Of a DNA stretch of 64,000 nucleotides, positions 8,117-16,642 are shown one piece after another. The notes under the pieces were generated by a model. It saw only the letters and a list, made by a program, of their open reading frames with translations. It made no database searches and was not told the DNA's origin. The position numbers were made by a program, and so were the translations under genes. The stretch comes from Acidobacteriota bacterium (GTDB lineage: Bacteria > Acidobacteriota > Blastocatellia > UBA7656): positions 1 to 64,000 of the forward strand of contig JACQDB010000121.1 in NCBI GenBank assembly GCA_016201275.1. Direction: 5' to 3'. Every line of letters begins with the position of its first letter. Within the stretch, counting starts at the first letter, position 1.

Positions 8117-8947
8117 ATGGCGACTAAACCGATAAAACGAGACGGCATTTTATCAACAGGCGGCATCCTTGACCGCATCGTTGACAAGCGACTGCAACGC
8201 CTTGCCCAAGCCAAACGGCGAGTTTCCAGACCTCAACTGCTGGAGCAAAGCGTGAGCAGGAAAGTTCCTCATCAAGCATTTGGTGATGCCTTGCGTGGCA
8301 GCGACGGCTTCAACATCATTGCCGAAATCAAACGTCAGTCCCCTTCAAAGGGCATCCTCCGCGCAGACTTCGATCACTTGGCGATAGCCGAAAGTTACGC
8401 GCAGGCCGGGGCTGCGGCAATATCGGTGTTGACCGAAGAAGATTTTTTCGGCGGCCACCTAAATTTTCTGCGCGACATTCATGAGCAGACCGCTACGCCG
8501 TTGCTGAGAAAAGATTTCATACTCGATGAATATCAACTCCTCGAAGCGTATCTGGCGGGGGCGTCGGCCATCCTGCTGATTACGGCGATTCTGGATGATA
8601 AATTGCTGGCGGCTCTTATCGGTCGTGCCGAAGATTTCAATCTTGAAGCGCTGGTCGAAGTTCATAGCGAAGATGAAATGCGCCGCGCTGCGCGGGCTGG
8701 CGCTTCTATCATTGGCGTCAACAATCGCGATTTAACCACCTTCAAAGTTGAACTGGAAACCTCTCTGCATCTGGCGAAGTTTGCGCCGCGTGAGGCGCTG
8801 CTGGTCAGCGAAAGCGGCATACATACAGGCGCAGACCTTCGCCGTTTGCAGGCCGCAGGTTATCAGGCGTTTTTAATTGGCGAGCATTTGATGCGACAAA
8901 CGGATGTAGCCACGGCCTTGCGCGAATTGATTGAAGAGGCTCGCTAG
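8117..8947 (+). CDS. trpC: Indole-3-glycerol phosphate synthase
   Basis: A 276-residue TIM-barrel enzyme converting CdRP to indole-3-glycerol phosphate. The signature IAEIKRQSPSKG with catalytic Lys lies near residue 73. VLTEEDFFGG, LLRKDFILDEYQ, VEVHSEDE, GVNNRDLTTF and LVSESGI follow in the expected order; the Lys of RKDF is the general acid. The N-terminus (KPIKRDGILSTGGILDRIVDKR) is about 20 residues longer than usual, so an internal start is possible, but no better one is seen. trpF follows after 6 bases. Confidence 0.95.
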   Translation: MATKPIKRDGILSTGGILDRIVDKRLQRLAQAKRRVSRPQLLEQSVSRKVPHQAFGDALRGSDGFNIIAEIKRQSPSKGILRADFDHLAIAESYAQAGAAAISVLTEEDFFGGHLNFLRDIHEQTATPLLRKDFILDEYQLLEAYLAGASAILLITAILDDKLLAALIGRAEDFNLEALVEVHSEDEMRRAARAGASIIGVNNRDLTTFKVELETSLHLAKFAPREALLVSESGIHTGADLRRLQAAGYQAFLIGEHLMRQTDVATALRELIEEAR

Positions 8948-8953
8948 CCAGTG

Positions 8954-9586
8954 ATGACAAAAGTGAAAGTGAAAATCTGCGGCGTGCGAACCTATGCAGA
9001 AGCGCAAACGGCGCTTGAAGGTGGAGCCGACGCGCTGGGCTTTAATTTCTGGCCAAAGAGTGTGCGCTTTATCACCCCCGACCAGGCGCGGAAAATTATT
9101 CAGCGCCTGCCGCCGTTCCTTTCCTGTGTCGGCGTCTTCGTCAACGCAGACGCCCAACGCATCAATCACATCGTTGAACAGACAGGCATACAAATCGTCC
9201 AACTGCACGGCGATGAAGCACCGGAATTTTGTCAGCAGCTTCACGCCGCGAAAATTATTAAAGCGTTTCGCGTCAACGAAGCCTTTGATGTCGAAGTGAT
9301 AAAAACATTTTCAGCAAGCGCTTTTCTTCTGGACGCCAAAGTGAAAGGCGAATACGGCGGCACCGGGCAGCGCTTCGATTGGCAGATTGCTATCGAAGCG
9401 AAAAAGTTTGCGCCGATTATTCTGGCGGGCGGCATCAATCAAGAGAACGTCGCTGAAGCGCTTCGCCTGGTCAGGCCATTTGCCATAGACGTGTGCAGCG
9501 GCGTGGAAGCCGAACCGGGCAGAAAAGATTTGCCCAAGTTGCGCGAATTCATGAAGACCGTCGAACAGGCGAATCGAAGTTGGTAG
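8954..9586 (+). CDS. trpF: Phosphoribosylanthranilate isomerase
   Basis: A 210-residue TIM barrel catalysing the Amadori rearrangement of PRA to CdRP. VKICGVRT carries the catalytic Cys near residue 9; GFNFWPKSVRF, VQLHGDEAPEFC, LDAKVKGEYGGTGQRFDW (catalytic Asp in LDA) and DVCSGVEAEPGRKD follow. The ATG at 8954 is chosen over the overlapping GTG at 8951. It directly follows trpC, giving the usual C-F order as separate proteins. Nothing unusual in the active site. Confidence 0.95.
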   Translation: MTKVKVKICGVRTYAEAQTALEGGADALGFNFWPKSVRFITPDQARKIIQRLPPFLSCVGVFVNADAQRINHIVEQTGIQIVQLHGDEAPEFCQQLHAAKIIKAFRVNEAFDVEVIKTFSASAFLLDAKVKGEYGGTGQRFDWQIAIEAKKFAPIILAGGINQENVAEALRLVRPFAIDVCSGVEAEPGRKDLPKLREFMKTVEQANRSW

Positions 9587-9630: not shown

Positions 9631-9732
9631 ATGAACCACGAAGGACACGATGAACACGAAGACTTTTTGACAAGCTTCGTCTTCATCGTCTTCATCGTCT
9701 TCATCGTCTTCATCGTCTTCATCGAGTTCATC
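9631..9732. repeat. NHEGHDEHE-type dispersed repeat with 9-base tandem array
   Basis: AACCACGAAGGACACGATG and following bases form the pattern that, when translated, gives spurious NHEGHxEHE proteins in many genomes. It is followed by GTCTTCATC repeated five times exactly (9679-9723) plus one imperfect unit (9724-9732). The two halves (GAACACGAAGAC and GTCTTCATCG) are partly complementary, so the whole can fold back. Confidence 0.6.
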
Positions 9733-9990
9733 GGGGTAATTCTTAACCAACCGGAAATGCGCCTGATTCGTTTCCTGCGAACCGTGAAATTCAAATTTGA
9801 AAAGCCGTTGCCGAGCGCTATCAAACGATCTATGGGCGCGGCGGTGGTGTTGGCGCTTGACGCGAGGTTTGCCACGCTTGTTAGCAATCCGTTTGCGGCG
9901 GAGTGGTTGGCGTGAATGGTTGCGGCGGTGGACGGTAGCGAGCGCAAACCTTCACCGCGTGCCTCCTGCATTTGAGATTTATTTCGTAAC

Positions 9991-10097: not shown

Positions 10098-11114
10098 TTA
10101 TTTCACTGCTTCAATGGGTTCGACCATCACGAAACTGCTTTTCGTCATCGCCTCGCTTTCGATGAACAACTGATAAATGCCGGTTTGTGGAAACCTCAAC
10201 AACACCGTCTGTTGACTATCAATTTGGGCGACTTGATGGGTTTGCTTGATGTGCACCGACACCGGCGCATTGCCGGAGTTGTAAATCCGAATCTCTCCCG
10301 GTTGTTTCAAGCGCAACCACTCCGGTTTCAGATGATTGCCTTCGACGGCGAATTCACCGGCAACCACATAAGCATCGCGCCGCACCGGTTCCGGCATAGA
10401 CACCACCCAGACCATCGCCAAAATAATCAGCGAACTCAACAACATCGTCAGCGGCATTTTATGGTCTTCGAGAAAATCCCGCGTGGCGTCCCATTTATAA
10501 ACCATCCAGCCGAGCGGCAACCCGTAAGCGATATGGCCAAAATAGGCGATGCCGATGGCGCGATAGTTGCCCGATAAATAAAAAATTCTGGCGAACGGAG
10601 AAAGCACCGCGAGGGTCTCCAACAGACAAGCCCATACGATAGCCCAGCCCCAGAAGCGTTTTTTCATGAACAAGGCGTACATTAAGCCGAAGGTGATGCC
10701 ATTCGAGAAATGATAAGCCCAGCCGCTCAATTCGGTGAAGCGGGTCGAGGTCTCGCTGTTCAACACCCATAAGCCATAGGCGCTGATGGGCGTAAAGATG
10801 CGTTGTCCGGCCAGCGCAAACGGCAACCGCGCCACATCATAACTGATGGTTGCCAGAAAACCGCCGAGGCTGCCAAGCAACAGCGCCGTGGCGAATTCAT
10901 CATCATCCGCCTTGCGCGTCCAAACCCAGATTCCCAATAAGATCGCCCCACAGGGCAGGGTGATGAACAGCACGGTTAAATGCATGGGCGCAAGGCCGTA
11001 AACTTTCGCCAGCAGCGACGCGCCCGAAGGCAGGCATAACAGCAGCGACAATACGCGCAATCCCTGCGTGTATTGTTGTGTCCCACTCTTTCTCTCGATT
11101 CTCTGTGCGATCAT
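10098..11114 (-). CDS. Polytopic membrane protein with C-terminal beta domain, unknown function
   Basis: A 338-residue protein. About six to seven hydrophobic segments lie between residues 20 and 245 (for example LTVLFITLPCGAILLGIWVW, FATALLLGSLGGFLATISY, AIVWACLLETLAVLSPFA, LTMLLSSLIILAMVWVVSM). The last 90 residues lack membrane segments and look like a cupredoxin/Ig-like beta fold ending in LRFPQTGIYQLFIESEAM. I do not recognise the family. It is divergent from trpB, sharing a 250-base region, and points toward trpF, so it splits the aromatic cluster. Confidence 0.6.
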   Translation of the reverse strand: MIAQRIERKSGTQQYTQGLRVLSLLLCLPSGASLLAKVYGLAPMHLTVLFITLPCGAILLGIWVWTRKADDDEFATALLLGSLGGFLATISYDVARLPFALAGQRIFTPISAYGLWVLNSETSTRFTELSGWAYHFSNGITFGLMYALFMKKRFWGWAIVWACLLETLAVLSPFARIFYLSGNYRAIGIAYFGHIAYGLPLGWMVYKWDATRDFLEDHKMPLTMLLSSLIILAMVWVVSMPEPVRRDAYVVAGEFAVEGNHLKPEWLRLKQPGEIRIYNSGNAPVSVHIKQTHQVAQIDSQQTVLLRFPQTGIYQLFIESEAMTKSSFVMVEPIEAVK

Positions 11115-11244: not shown

Positions 11245-11363
11245 CCGATGCTCATTCCAATCGGTTATACAAGGCTTCGGTCGGTGCTGCTATTTATGGC
11301 ACAGTTGCAGGGAAAAAGGAACGGAATTTTTACGAATTCTTTTTGAAAGAGAAACTCGTTGCA

Positions 11364-12560
11364 ATGGAAAATTATCACTTGCCGGATGAGGGCGGACATT
11401 TCGGAATTTACGGCGGACGCTTCGTGCCGGAAACCTTGATGCACCCGCTCGATGAATTAACCAAAGCCTACGACGCGGCGCAACGCGACCCGGAATTTCA
11501 CACGCAACTTCAACACCTGCTCACCACCTATGTCGGCAGACCCACGCCCTTGATGTTCGCCGCAGCTTTGACCAGACATTTAGGCGGCGCACGCATTTAT
11601 TTAAAGCGCGAAGACCTCTGTCATACCGGGGCGCATAAAATCAACAACGCCATCGGTCAGGCGTTATTGGCCAAACGCATGGGCAAACAACGCATCATTG
11701 CCGAAACCGGCGCGGGGCAACACGGCGTGGCCTCGGCGACGGTCTGCGCGCTGTTGGGCTTGGAGTGCATCGTTTATATGGGAACCGAAGATATGCGCCG
11801 CCAGGAGTTGAATGTCTTTCGTATGCGTTTGCTCGGCGCGCAGGTTGTAGGCGTGGACGCAGGCAGCCGCACCTTGAAAGACGCCATCAATGAAGCCTTG
11901 CGCGATTGGGTGACCAATGTCGAGACCACCTATTATTTATTAGGCTCGGCTTTGGGGCCGCATCCGTATCCGGCGATGGTGCGCGATTTTCAAGCGGTCA
12001 TTGGTCGAGAAGCGCGCCAACAAATTCTTGCAGTCGAAGGGCGCTTGCCGGATTTATTGATTGCCTGCGTCGGCGGCGGCAGCAATGCCATAGGCTTGTT
12101 TTATGAATTCATCGGTGCTGATGAAGTGCGTATGCTGGGCGTCGAAGCGGGCGGACGCGGCTTGCAGAGCGGCGACCATGCAGCGCGTTTCAGCGGCGGC
12201 AAGCTCGGCGTTTTGCAAGGCACGCGCAGTTATGTTTTGCAGGATGACAACGGCCAGATTGCCTTGACGCATTCGATTTCCGCAGGGTTGGATTATTCGG
12301 CGGTGGGTCCCGAACACGCCTATTTACGCGATGCCGAGCGCGTCGCTTATACTTCGGCAAACGATGACGAGGCGTTGGCGGCGTTTCAATTATTGGCGAA
12401 ATTGGAAGGCATCATACCGGCTTTGGAATCGGAGCACGCCATCGCTGAAGTCATCAAGACCGCGCCGCACATGGCACCCGACAAAATCATCGTGGTGAAT
12501 TTATCGGGGCGCGGCGACAAGGATGTGAACACCGTGATGCCGCTTGTGATGAACCAATGA
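11364..12560 (+). CDS. trpB: Tryptophan synthase beta chain
   Basis: A 398-residue PLP enzyme condensing indole with serine. [18 protein letters not shown] is the standard opening. The PLP lysine is in [13 protein letters not shown] near residue 90, the phosphate-binding loop is GGGSNAIG near 235, and [14 protein letters not shown] is the catalytic COMM-domain segment. The ATG at 11364 fits the family length better than the TTG at 11343. It is separated from trpA by about 900 bases holding an MNT-HEPN pair, although the two chains form one complex and their genes are usually adjacent. Confidence 0.95.
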
Positions 12561-12666: not shown

Positions 12667-13068
12667 ATGAGTCTTCCGGTAAGTCAGAATTTTCAAGAAG
12701 CCGTTCAAGCAAAGCCGAGCTTGTCTAAGGAGGCTCTGCGACGCAGGCGCAAACAGATTCAAGAAGTTTGCCGGACAATTATTAGCAATTTTCATCCTGA
12801 AAAAATTACCTTTTTCGGCTCGTTTGCCTATGGCAAGCCAGAGCTAGAATCCGACGTGGATTGGCTGATTGTGATGCCTTATGAAGGCAGCCCGTTTCGT
12901 ATGGCCTCGTTGATATTGACTTTTATCGTTCATTCCGTAGGCGTACTGCCGATTGATTTACTGGTGCGGTCAGAGCAACAGATCAGCCACAGACTGAAAA
13001 TCGGCGACAGCTTTATTCGGGAAATTCTGGAACGCGGAAAGGTGTTGTATGAAAGCGACCGCGCTTGA
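12667..13068 (+). CDS. MNT-type minimal nucleotidyltransferase (antitoxin-like)
   Basis: A 133-residue nucleotidyltransferase. GSFAYGKPELESDVDWLIVM near residues 55-75 exactly fits the GS-X10-DXD signature of DNA polymerase beta-like MNT proteins. In HepT-MntA pairs such proteins AMPylate and neutralise the HEPN partner; whether this one does so is inference. AGGAG lies about 8 bases before the ATG. It overlaps the following HEPN gene by 20 bases, indicating translational coupling. Its TTGACA-type promoter with direct repeats lies upstream, after the trpB stop. The N-terminal 40 residues are charged and without an assignable domain. Confidence 0.8.
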   Translation: MSLPVSQNFQEAVQAKPSLSKEALRRRRKQIQEVCRTIISNFHPEKITFFGSFAYGKPELESDVDWLIVMPYEGSPFRMASLILTFIVHSVGVLPIDLLVRSEQQISHRLKIGDSFIREILERGKVLYESDRA

Positions 13069-13435
13069 ATGGGTGAACAAAGCAGAGGGCGATTGGCACG
13101 TTGCCCAGATGAGTTATCGCGCTCGCAAGCACCCAAATTTTGACGCAGCGGTTTTTCATGCACAACAATGCGCTGAAAAATGTCTGAAAGCCAGACTGGA
13201 AGAATCAGCGATTGCCTTTAGCCGCACGCATGATTTGTTGGTGCTTCATCAACTGGTAATCACGGTCGAGCCGGGCTGGGCGACTTTGCAATTGTTGCTG
13301 ATTATTCTGAATCCATTTGCGGTTGCCTATCGGTATTCCGGCCTATCGGCTTCTCGGTCAGATGCGAAGGATGCCTTGAATGCTGGTCGTGAAGTGCGGC
13401 GAGCGATTCGCAACACGTTTGGTCTGCCGATATGA
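13049..13435 (+). CDS. HEPN-domain protein (putative toxin partner of MNT)
   Basis: A 128-residue alpha-helical HEPN protein. FHAQQCAEKCLKARL followed by AFSRTHDLLVL is the classic core of the family (helix two plus RTHDL turn). The RX4-6H ribonuclease motif of toxic HEPN proteins is not present in its usual form; the nearest arrangement is RARKH (R-X3-H), so RNase activity is uncertain. It overlaps the MNT gene by 20 bases. The pair sits between trpB and trpA. It could be a HepT-like toxin, or a substrate-binding partner of the nucleotidyltransferase with no toxic role. Confidence 0.75.
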   Translation: MKATALEWVNKAEGDWHVAQMSYRARKHPNFDAAVFHAQQCAEKCLKARLEESAIAFSRTHDLLVLHQLVITVEPGWATLQLLLIILNPFAVAYRYSGLSASRSDAKDALNAGREVRRAIRNTFGLPI

Positions 13436-13471: not shown

Positions 13472-14257
13472 ATGACGAGAATTCAATCCAAATTTCATGA
13501 ATTGAAACAAGCGGGGCGCAAGGCGTTCATCCCTTACCTTACGGCGGGCGACCCGGATTTGGCGACGACCGCGAAATTGATTTTGTCGTTGGCAGAAAAC
13601 GGCGCGGACATTATCGAATTGGGCGTACCGTTTTCCGACCCGATGGCGGATGGCCTGGTGATTCAGAGAGCTTCTGAACGCGCTCTGCGACACCAGGTCA
13701 GCGTCAGAGATTGTCTTGATCTCGTCAAGCAGGTGCGCTTGCACAGTCAAGTGCCGATAGTTTTATTCAGCTATTTGAATCCGCTGTTGTCGTTGAAGGC
13801 GTTGGGGCAAGCCTTGCGCGAGGTCGGCGTGGATGGCGTACTGGCTACCGACTTGGTGCCGGAAGAAGCCGGGGATTACCTCGCAGAGATGCGCGAAGCC
13901 AATGTTGATACGATTTTTTTAGTCGCGCCAACCAGTCCCGACGCACGCTTGAAGCGCGTAGCGGATTGTTGCACCGGATTTATTTATGCGGTGTCGCGCA
14001 CGGGCGTCACCGGCGTGCGTCAGAGCTTGTCGCAGTCGGCGAATCATCTGGTCCATCGCGTGCGCCGCTTTACGGAATTGCCGATTGCCGTAGGCTTTGG
14101 CATTTCAACCCCGGAACAGGTTGCCGCCGTCTGGCAACACGCCGATGCAGCGGTGGTCGGCAGTCGTATCGTTGCCGAGATTGAAAACCTTGAAGGCCAT
14201 GAACATTTAGTCGAGAGAATCGGCGCATTGACGCGCTCCTTGGTCGGCAAACCTTAG
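13472..14257 (+). CDS. trpA: Tryptophan synthase alpha chain
   Basis: A 261-residue TIM barrel that cleaves indole-3-glycerol phosphate and passes indole to TrpB. FIPYLTAGDPDLATT, then IIELGVPFSDPMADGLVIQ with catalytic Glu near residue 48 and Asp near 59. VLATDLVPEEAG, FLVAPTSPDARL, FIYAVSRTGVTG and AVGFGISTPEQV complete the family pattern. It starts 36 bases after the HEPN stop with no clear promoter, so its transcription may depend on the MNT-HEPN promoter or on read-through from trpB. Confidence 0.95.
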   Translation: MTRIQSKFHELKQAGRKAFIPYLTAGDPDLATTAKLILSLAENGADIIELGVPFSDPMADGLVIQRASERALRHQVSVRDCLDLVKQVRLHSQVPIVLFSYLNPLLSLKALGQALREVGVDGVLATDLVPEEAGDYLAEMREANVDTIFLVAPTSPDARLKRVADCCTGFIYAVSRTGVTGVRQSLSQSANHLVHRVRRFTELPIAVGFGISTPEQVAAVWQHADAAVVGSRIVAEIENLEGHEHLVERIGALTRSLVGKP

Positions 14258-14361
14258 CCGGCGGTTTGCCGAGCCGGAAGGAGTTTTGACCCCCTGAAGC
14301 TTGAACCATGAAGCTTTCGTTGACGAAATATCATTGGTAGTTTTTCGATTTGGAGAATGCT

Positions 14362-14670
14362 GTGGACATCAGTGATTGGCGAGACGAAATTGATCGCATA
14401 GACGAAGAGTTGGTCCGCTTGCTCAATCGCCGTTCGGTGTGCGCGATTGAAATCGGCAGAATCAAACGCGAGTTGAATTTGCCGGTCTATTCCCCGAATC
14501 GTGAAACGGAAGTCATCCGCCATGTGTTGAGCCAGAATCACGGGCCTCTGGAAATGGCGGCGATTCGTCGTTTGTTCGAGCGCATCATTGACGAGTCGCG
14601 CAGTCTGGAGCGCACTATTATGGAGAAAGAATTGGAAGACGAACGCCGCGCCGAAAATGCCCATGAGTGA
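14362..14670 (+). CDS. Chorismate mutase, AroQ class
   Basis: A 102-residue all-helical chorismate mutase making prephenate. WRDEIDRIDEELVRLLNRR with the first catalytic Arg, then IKRELNLPVYSPNRE with the Lys/Arg pair, and the C-terminal helix FERIIDESRSLER match AroQ-beta/gamma-type monofunctional enzymes. GTG at 14362 is preferred because GGAG lies 6 bases upstream; a TTG at 14350 is also in frame. It precedes the FXD-prephenate dehydrogenase gene by 36 bases, so the two consecutive tyrosine steps are probably co-expressed. Confidence 0.9.
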   Translation: MDISDWRDEIDRIDEELVRLLNRRSVCAIEIGRIKRELNLPVYSPNRETEVIRHVLSQNHGPLEMAAIRRLFERIIDESRSLERTIMEKELEDERRAENAHE

Positions 14671-14706
14671 GAGCGTGCGGCGGCCATTTCGTCGAAGGAT
14701 AAAGAG

Positions 14707-15828
14707 ATGATCATCGTTATGGAAGAGAGCGCCAACGAAGCGCAGGTCGTTAAGGTAATCGAAAGAATTGTGGAACTCGGTTTCGACATTTATCGCACCA
14801 CAGGGGCGCGCTACACGATTTTGGGCGCGGTCGGCAACCGTCCCATTGAGCCAAGCGACGTGCAGGCTATGGAAAGGCTCGACGGCGTTAAAGACGTAGT
14901 GCGAATCAGTGGCGATTCAGTACGAAAAATCCAACGCCCGCTGGCCGTCCGTCCGCCCGAAACTCCTGCCGTGCATTTTCCTCATCTGACAATTTTCGGA
15001 GTCGGTTTAATCGGCGGCTCATTGGCGCTGGCCGCCCGCGAAGCCGGACTTGCTGCGCGCATCAGCGGCTGTGGCGATAAGAAATTTTTAGAAGCGGCGT
15101 TGGCGCTACAGGTCATAGACGACATTGACGAAGCCTTTGAAAACGGCGAGACCAGCGATGCCGATTTGATTTATCTGGCGGCTCCGGTCAATGCCATTGT
15201 CGAGTTTTTGCAGACCAAAAGTCATCTAGTGAAAGCCGGAGCGATCATCACCGATGCGGGCAGCGCCAAGCGCGAAATCTGTCAGGCGGCGCGTGATTCT
15301 TTGCCTGCTACGGTTGCCTTTGTCGGCGGCCATCCGATGGCGGGCAGTCATCGAGTCGGCGTGGAATTCGCTTCCGCCGATTTATTCAAGCGCGCCGCTT
15401 ACGCCTTGATAGTGGACGCGACGAATCAACCGGACAGGGTTGCGCTGGCCAACATCGAAGCCCTTATCAAAACCATAGGCGGACGGGTGGTGCAGATGTC
15501 CGCCGAGCAACACGACCAGATTGCCGCACGCCTCAGCCACGCGCCGCAACTGGTTTCCACAGCGCTCGTCAACGCGGTGGCAAAGTCCAACGCCAGTCAA
15601 GCGTTGGCGCTTGCCGGAAGAGGCTTTCAGGATATGACGCGACTGGCCAATAGCCGTTGGTCGGTGTGGGAAGACATCATCGAAGCCAATGCCGATGAAA
15701 TCGTCTTGGCCTTAACAGAAGTTATATTTGAATTGCAAAAAGTTCGTGATAGTATAGCGCATAAAGATTTATCCGATTTGCGGAAAGCTTTTGCAGCGGC
15801 AAATGATTATTTGCACAATGCCCCTTAG
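14707..15828 (+). CDS. tyrA: Prephenate dehydrogenase with N-terminal DAHP-synthase FXD regulatory domain
   Basis: A 373-residue fusion. Residues 1-72 (MIIVMEESANEAQVVKVIER..., ending GVKDVVRISGDS) match the ferredoxin-like FXD domain normally found in front of type I-beta DAHP synthase, where it binds Tyr/Phe for feedback control. No DAHP synthase barrel follows. Residues 95-373 are prephenate dehydrogenase: IFGVGLIGGSLALAAREAG (NAD-binding), ITDAGSAKREI, and FVGGHPMAGSHRVGVE with the catalytic His. ACT domain, the usual TyrA regulator, is missing. The FXD part could give tyrosine feedback or dock onto DAHP synthase. Domain identity is firm; the regulatory role is inferred. Confidence 0.9.
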   Translation: MIIVMEESANEAQVVKVIERIVELGFDIYRTTGARYTILGAVGNRPIEPSDVQAMERLDGVKDVVRISGDSVRKIQRPLAVRPPETPAVHFPHLTIFGVGLIGGSLALAAREAGLAARISGCGDKKFLEAALALQVIDDIDEAFENGETSDADLIYLAAPVNAIVEFLQTKSHLVKAGAIITDAGSAKREICQAARDSLPATVAFVGGHPMAGSHRVGVEFASADLFKRAAYALIVDATNQPDRVALANIEALIKTIGGRVVQMSAEQHDQIAARLSHAPQLVSTALVNAVAKSNASQALALAGRGFQDMTRLANSRWSVWEDIIEANADEIVLALTEVIFELQKVRDSIAHKDLSDLRKAFAAANDYLHNAP

Positions 15829-15883: not shown

Positions 15884-16642
15884 ATGGCAACGTATGTAAT
15901 TGGCGATATACACGGACGGGCGCACTTATTGGATCAGTTGCTGCGCGATCTTCCTTGGAATGTAAAGCAGGACAAGATTGTTTTTCTTGGTGATTTGATT
16001 GATCGCGGCCCCGAATCGCCTGCCGTCATAGACCGCGTGATGGCATTAGCTGCCGCCAATCCTCAGGTCATAGTGCTGCGCGGCAACCATGAACAGATGC
16101 TGCTTGATTGTTTGGAATATGGTGAGTTGAACTGGTTGATTCCCGAAAATGGCGGCCAGGTCACCTTGAAATCTTACGGCATCAGCCTCGGCGAGATCGA
16201 AGACATTGCCGATATAAAAATTCCCGAAGAGCATTTCGAGTTTCTCAACCGCCTGCCGTTTTATCATGAAGACGAGCAGGCGATTTATGTACACGCGGGT
16301 TTGATACCCGGCCTGCCGCCTGCCGAAACCGACCCTGATATTTTACTGTGGACTCGTGACCTGGACTTTTATCGAAACTATCACGGCAAGCTCTGTTTTT
16401 TCGGTCACACGCCTACGCATTATCTGCCCAAAGACGGACGCCGCAAATTCGGCATCTACATACACGGCGGTTGCGTCGGCATAGACACCAGCGGCCAGGA
16501 AGACAGCCCACTCTCGTGCCTCAATGTCGAATCCTTCGCGCTTTATCAAGCCTATCCAACCGGAAAAACCGAAGTCGAACGATTGCGAGAGGCCAAACCT
16601 GCTTTTACTTTTGCCGCCAATGAAGCGCGAGTTGCTTCTTAG
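15884..16642 (+). CDS. PP2A/ApaH-type metallophosphoesterase
   Basis: A 252-residue calcineurin-like phosphatase. The metal-binding signature appears in order: GDIHGR (residues 6-11), FLGDLIDRGPES (about 34-45), LRGNHEQM (about 64-71), then HAGLIPG near 132 and FGHTP near 173. This is the serine/threonine protein phosphatase / diadenosine tetraphosphatase superfamily. Substrate cannot be distinguished from sequence. It follows the tyrosine gene by 55 bases and is likely a separate function. Confidence 0.85.
   Translation: MATYVIGDIHGRAHLLDQLLRDLPWNVKQDKIVFLGDLIDRGPESPAVIDRVMALAAANPQVIVLRGNHEQMLLDCLEYGELNWLIPENGGQVTLKSYGISLGEIEDIADIKIPEEHFEFLNRLPFYHEDEQAIYVHAGLIPGLPPAETDPDILLWTRDLDFYRNYHGKLCFFGHTPTHYLPKDGRRKFGIYIHGGCVGIDTSGQEDSPLSCLNVESFALYQAYPTGKTEVERLREAKPAFTFAANEARVAS

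Follow-up and report, generated by a model that had tools for sequence, protein, structure and literature searches.

A prephenate dehydrogenase with a DAHP synthase-type ferredoxin-like domain at its N-terminus in the trp cluster of an acidobacterium

In this study, we describe a gene fusion found in a window of 64,000 nucleotides (the whole stretch of DNA that was analysed; positions 1 to 64,000 of contig JACQDB010000121.1, assembly GCA_016201275.1) from a member of the Blastocatellia (Acidobacteriota). At positions 14707-15828 of the forward strand, a single uninterrupted reading frame of 373 amino acids joins the ferredoxin-like domain (FXD) that belongs to DAHP synthase, the first enzyme on the way to tyrosine, to a prephenate dehydrogenase (TyrA). 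The explanation that best accounts for the whole of the evidence, and to which we give a probability of roughly 0.55, is that an N-terminal FXD serves as an allosteric domain of this prephenate dehydrogenase, left in place by loss of the DAHP synthase barrel and retuned in its effector pocket. In the DAHP synthase of T. maritima, the tyrosine sites are formed jointly by two N-terminal ACT-like domains (PMC5493349), and access of the substrate is restricted once Phe or Tyr has bound to the ferredoxin-like domain (PMC5526877).

Domain composition and origin of the fusion

Pfam places DAHP_snth_FXD (PF18152) at residues 1-68 with 55.0 bits (cut-off 27; E 7e-15), PDH_N (PF02153) at residues 106-262 with 97.5 bits and PDH_C (PF20463) at residues 265-362 with 64.7 bits. 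Within the 373 residues there is no Pfam match to the DAHP synthase barrel (PF00793), nor to an ACT domain at E values up to 10, and the chain terminates with PDH_C. The first-pass annotation, made from the sequence alone, had proposed an FXD at residues 1-72 followed by a TyrA without barrel or ACT domain; profile and fold searches agree with it on both counts and move only the domain boundary, to residue 68. The chain consists of an FXD (14707-14910) joined to a complete TyrA by a linker that is short and disordered. Model, alignment and substitution rates delimit the linker as residues 69-90 (14911-14976), from which the P-Y-K-L motif marking the FXD-to-barrel junction in DAHP synthase is gone. 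Its 20 or so residues may derive either from the former C-terminus of the barrel or from intergenic DNA. Profile, model and match in the Protein Data Bank (PDB) set the NAD(P)-binding PDH_N domain at residues 91-262 (14977-15492) and the PDH_C dimerisation domain at residues 263-373 plus the stop codon (15493-15828). A Shine-Dalgarno-like motif, GAAGGA, lies on the same strand at 14694-14699, 7 bases 5′ of the ATG of the FXD.

The AlphaFold model of the whole protein has a pLDDT of 94, with a single low-confidence stretch at linker residues 73-80 (very low), and residues 1-72 modelled alone reach 89. When the FXD model was compared with the PDB by Foldseek, the 8 best matches were all FXDs of T. 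maritima-type DAHP synthases (4grs, 1rzm, 1vr6; E 6e-5 to 8e-4, TMq 0.78-0.82), 4grs being the first. The VIA Z scores against T. maritima-type FXDs were 11.7-12.1 over 69-70 residues, the best unrelated fold reaching 8.8. Such profile and fold comparisons were needed, since a phmmer search of the PDB with the FXD alone gave only a weak match (4grs, E 0.25). The TyrA part aligns with solved bacterial TyrA structures with Z of 27-34, and its core is 33% identical to the structurally matched B. anthracis TyrA (5uyy). A genome-wide profile search found one PDH_N match, the fusion itself, and no second, stand-alone TyrA.

The same architecture occurs in a second genome, G002, of the same family and another genus (L137:7455-8576), with 63% identity over the full length, a chorismate mutase gene 5′ and the same phosphoesterase gene 3′. 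Since this independent genome carries both the fusion and its neighbours, an assembly join of two separate genes is ruled out. The two genomes are the only ones with the fused order among the 162 of the class. In all five remaining genomes of the family (5/5), FXD-DAHP synthase and TyrA are separate genes of the same cluster, in the order trpA-CM-[FXD-DAHP synthase]-[TyrA]-phosphoesterase (CM, chorismate mutase); CM-[FXD-DAHP synthase]-[TyrA] is also found in further members of the class and phylum, often with trp genes 5′. What is missing from the window and from G002 is the barrel between FXD and TyrA. In the TyrA tree the two fusions are sisters (support 100) nested within their own family (97). 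The FXD tree groups the FXDs of the fusions with the cluster-linked (operon) type; the genome's further FXD-DAHP synthases, which fall apart from it, were rejected as a source. The fused FXD is most likely the leftover of the DAHP synthase gene that lies between chorismate mutase and TyrA in relatives, and not a domain recruited from afar, as gene order suggests.

Separately, genome G026 (L147:4994-6901) shows how near such neighbours are to fusing: its FXD-DAHP synthase and TyrA reading frames are separated by 39 bases, and the TyrA match sits in a frame of 636 codons interrupted by one TAG.

Independent and related fusions

Our sample of the phylum (396 genomes) contains a further FXD-TyrA in G170, a distant acidobacterium that is the sole genome of its class in the comparison. 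This protein has 361 amino acids and a PF18152 match of 67.9 bits, and stands in the order trpD-C-F-B-A-CM-[FXD-TyrA]-[FXD-DAHP synthase]-aroA-aroE (genes without Pfam matches being named from their translations), so that it adjoins an intact DAHP synthase carrying another FXD subtype. Because the tree places its TyrA on a long branch far from that of the window, the fusion in G170 most likely arose independently of the one shared by the window and G002. Residues S186, H209, D270, S277, H278, R312 and W321, which correspond to conserved catalytic-site residues of A. aeolicus TyrA, are invariant across all three fusions.

Two genomes of another phylum encode a four-domain chain, FXD-DAHPS-PDH-ACT (L061:1746-3941, forward strand, 731 amino acids, and L218:348-2510, forward strand, 720 amino acids; assigned by Pfam for L061 and from the translation for L218). 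Here, tyrosine synthesis has its first and its last step, together with two regulatory domains, in one protein, and neighbour fusion is seen to occur also without barrel loss. An FXD-TyrA lacking the barrel was found neither among the listed matches from 195 genomes of this phylum nor among the best 80 loci in a search of further phyla, both ranked by TyrA similarity, a ranking that does not establish absence elsewhere.

Function of the FXD

Between the window and G002, the ratio of non-synonymous to synonymous change (dN/dS) is 0.19 in the FXD, 0.89 in the linker and 0.17 in PDH_N; the values are rough because synonymous sites are near saturation, and the linker serves as an internal control. 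Identity is 71% in the FXD, 32% in the linker and 61-64% in PDH, the difference between FXD and PDH not being significant. These comparisons indicate that the FXD is under purifying selection and that the linker evolves almost freely. Hence the FXD is probably not debris.

With regard to the first step of the pathway, this genome encodes three FXD-DAHP synthases (type I-beta, all on other contigs than the fusion), a single KDO8P synthase and a single DAHP synthase of type I-alpha, the last without an FXD match. The type I-alpha enzyme is present in 12 of the 162 class genomes, namely ten from one other family and exactly the two fusion genomes, and in none of the five unfused genomes of the window's family. 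It is nearest to the Tyr-sensitive AroF of E. coli. At the position that holds Ser in 4hsn (Neisseria) and Gly in 4hso, the window and G002 enzymes have Gly and those of the other family Ser; Gly there corresponds to Tyr sensitivity and Ser to Phe sensitivity. The window and G002 enzymes are 75% identical to each other and each 52-56% identical to the others, which argues for a single acquisition.

From these data we propose that the ancestral trpA-CM-[FXD-DAHP synthase]-[TyrA]-phosphoesterase cluster lost the barrel, leaving the FXD in frame with TyrA. The FXDs may then pair within or between TyrA dimers, and tyrosine or a closely related aromatic end product may be held between the paired domains, as in the T. 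maritima DAHP synthase. Binding would lower TyrA activity, and the FXD would thereby fill the role of the ACT domain of other TyrAs. At the first step, control by tyrosine would have passed to the acquired AroF-like type I-alpha enzyme, and this takeover may have made the barrel of the operon dispensable. On a wider and more tentative reading, which we hold with less than even confidence, the allosteric control of tyrosine synthesis would have moved from the pathway's first enzyme to its last through deletion of the intervening catalytic domain; TyrA would have received the FXD in at least two independent events, one lineage retuning its sensor after a separately regulated DAHP synthase had taken over the first step.

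Several observations weigh against an allosteric FXD left behind by barrel loss. First, dS is near saturation in the comparison on which the selection estimate is based. Second, the FXDs of the window and G002 share 72% identity at 62% PDH identity, as compared with 82-85% at 54-57% in unfused inter-genus pairs of the family; this faster change suggests a constraint weaker than in DAHP synthase. Third, the correlation between type I-alpha enzyme and fusion, as judged from these sequences, counts as one evolutionary event. Fourth, the FXD tree sets the fused FXDs nearer to the cluster FXDs of another family than to those of their own. Gain from that other family's cluster was considered on this ground and set aside, since the test does not reject common descent within their own family (p-AU 0.26, on 75 alignment columns only).

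The last point concerns the pocket itself. When 36 cluster-linked sequences of FXD-DAHP synthase, drawn from several phyla, were aligned, with residues 1-65 of the T. maritima enzyme added from the PDB match, His29 and Ser31 proved invariant (36/36), and T. maritima has the same two residues. The fusions of the window and G002 carry Tyr29 (H29Y; codon at 14791-14793) and Thr31 (S31T; codon at 14797-14799). H29 and S31 presumably contact tyrosine in the T. maritima enzyme. The substitutions weaken the claim of a Tyr sensor of the ancestral type but leave membership of the FXD family standing, since other FXD subtypes likewise lack S31. In the genome's other FXD copies, H29 is accompanied by I or M at position 31, so the fused FXD is the sole operon-type FXD left there. 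In the fused FXDs the fold residues M5, A9, G25, G33, G40, G43 and V61 are kept, and the fused FXD of G170 retains both H29 and S31.

It follows that plain tyrosine sensing by way of the ancestral pocket cannot safely be assumed for the window. Either the effector or its affinity would have changed, or sensing would have been abandoned for permanent pairing of the FXDs. The second branch amounts to an FXD that is only an oligomerisation or stability module, in which the side chain of Tyr29 may occupy the place of the ligand so that no effector is sensed. That two otherwise invariant positions changed jointly and became fixed in two genera, in a fold whose residues are kept and which is under purifying selection, speaks for such a module, but Thr31 still has a hydroxyl group and the independent fusion of G170 retains H29 and S31, which makes sensing the more natural common benefit. 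We regard a mere structural module as rather unlikely.

Still less probable is that the FXD is a functionless remnant of the deleted gene, tolerated as an N-terminal tail. Its origin by deletion, its altered pocket positions and a rate of evolution above that of FXDs still attached to DAHP synthase would suit this explanation. They stand against the contrast in dN/dS between the FXD and the adjoining linker, a confidently folded model, the persistence of the fusion through divergence to 63% identity and the finding that such a fusion appears to have arisen twice. Finally, an association in trans of FXD-TyrA with a separate DAHP synthase through FXD-FXD pairing, by which the first and last steps would be coupled, is very improbable: the N-terminal domains of the T. 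maritima enzyme do pair (PMC5493349) and three further FXD-DAHP synthases are available in the genome, but their FXDs are of other subtypes (I or M at 31) and are encoded on other contigs.

We return to an allosteric FXD on TyrA, whose affinity or specificity probably differs from that of the ancestral FXD because positions 29 and 31 have changed. Of the two roles suggested in the first-pass annotation, the coupling of first and last steps finds no support, as the remaining type I-beta enzymes have FXDs of their own and the type I-alpha enzyme has no FXD match. Recruitment for direct regulation of tyrosine synthesis stands in part: a real FXD kept under selection fits a regulatory role, but the domain was most likely inherited from the DAHP synthase of the cluster, and feedback by tyrosine itself is unsafe to assume with Y29 and T31.

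Known systems and the surrounding gene cluster

TyrA proteins with a fused regulatory domain are already a known kind, of which the FXD is a new variant. In the portion of Song et al. 2005 (PMC1173090) considered here, the catalogued fusions are AroQ-TyrA, TyrA-AroF (EPSP synthase), HisHb-TyrA, TyrA-ACT and TyrA-REG; TyrA is likewise the fusion partner, but the FXD is not among these. The same paper also speculates that, in P. syringae, what is left of a disrupted fused domain might turn into a new regulatory domain; FXD-TyrA resembles this proposal, but on the N-terminal side. We found no report of an FXD on TyrA in the open-access literature, whose coverage is incomplete, and searching by the names of the FXD family retrieved no paper.

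In ACT-type TyrA of the Bacillus type (B. anthracis 5uyy), the regulatory domain is C-terminal, whereas here it is N-terminal, of a different family, and differs in origin, being apparently a leftover of DAHP synthase. By profile and structure, the type I-beta DAHP synthase of T. maritima (1rzm, 1vr6) has the same FXD, but the fusion lacks the barrel, carries the FXD on another enzyme and has H29 and S31 replaced. The four-domain chains also hold FXD and TyrA together, but they keep the barrel and the ACT domain. Entry 4grs is a chimeric DAH7PS in which the T. maritima FXD was engineered onto the Pyrococcus enzyme; there too the FXD moved to a new catalytic partner, but FXD-TyrA is natural, and the enzyme that the FXD has joined here belongs to the same pathway without being related to DAHP synthase.

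FXD-TyrA offers a natural counterpart to domain-transfer experiments, with unfused, fused, independently fused and four-domain forms to be compared side by side. Gene neighbourhood followed by loss of a catalytic part would be a simple route for a regulatory domain to switch enzyme, one on which Song et al. 2005 (PMC1173090) only speculated, for a broken TyrA fusion. The altered pocket positions also lead to a sharp, testable prediction on effector specificity.

All genes of the cluster named here are on the forward strand unless stated. Directly 5′ of the fusion lies the chorismate mutase gene (AroQ, CM_2; 14350-14670; PF01817, 86 bits), which ends 36 bases upstream as had been noted. It is preceded by trpA (13472-14257), trpB (11343-12560), trpF (8951-9586) and trpC (8117-8947), identified from their translations and from an order common to relatives with the trp-CM-TyrA cluster. 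The 3′ neighbour encodes a calcineurin-like phosphoesterase (15884-16642; PF00149), also found 3′ in the unfused members of the family. Between trpB and trpA lies an MNT/HEPN toxin-antitoxin-like pair (12667-13435), made up of a gene for a nucleotidyltransferase (NTP_transf_2/Polbeta) and, overlapping it, one for a HEPN-domain protein. The cluster also contains an opposite-strand open reading frame (10098-11114, reverse strand) for a membrane-protein-like product of 338 amino acids without Pfam match, and 3′ of trpF, at 9677-9733, the 9-base unit TCGTCTTCA is repeated in tandem in 6.3 copies.
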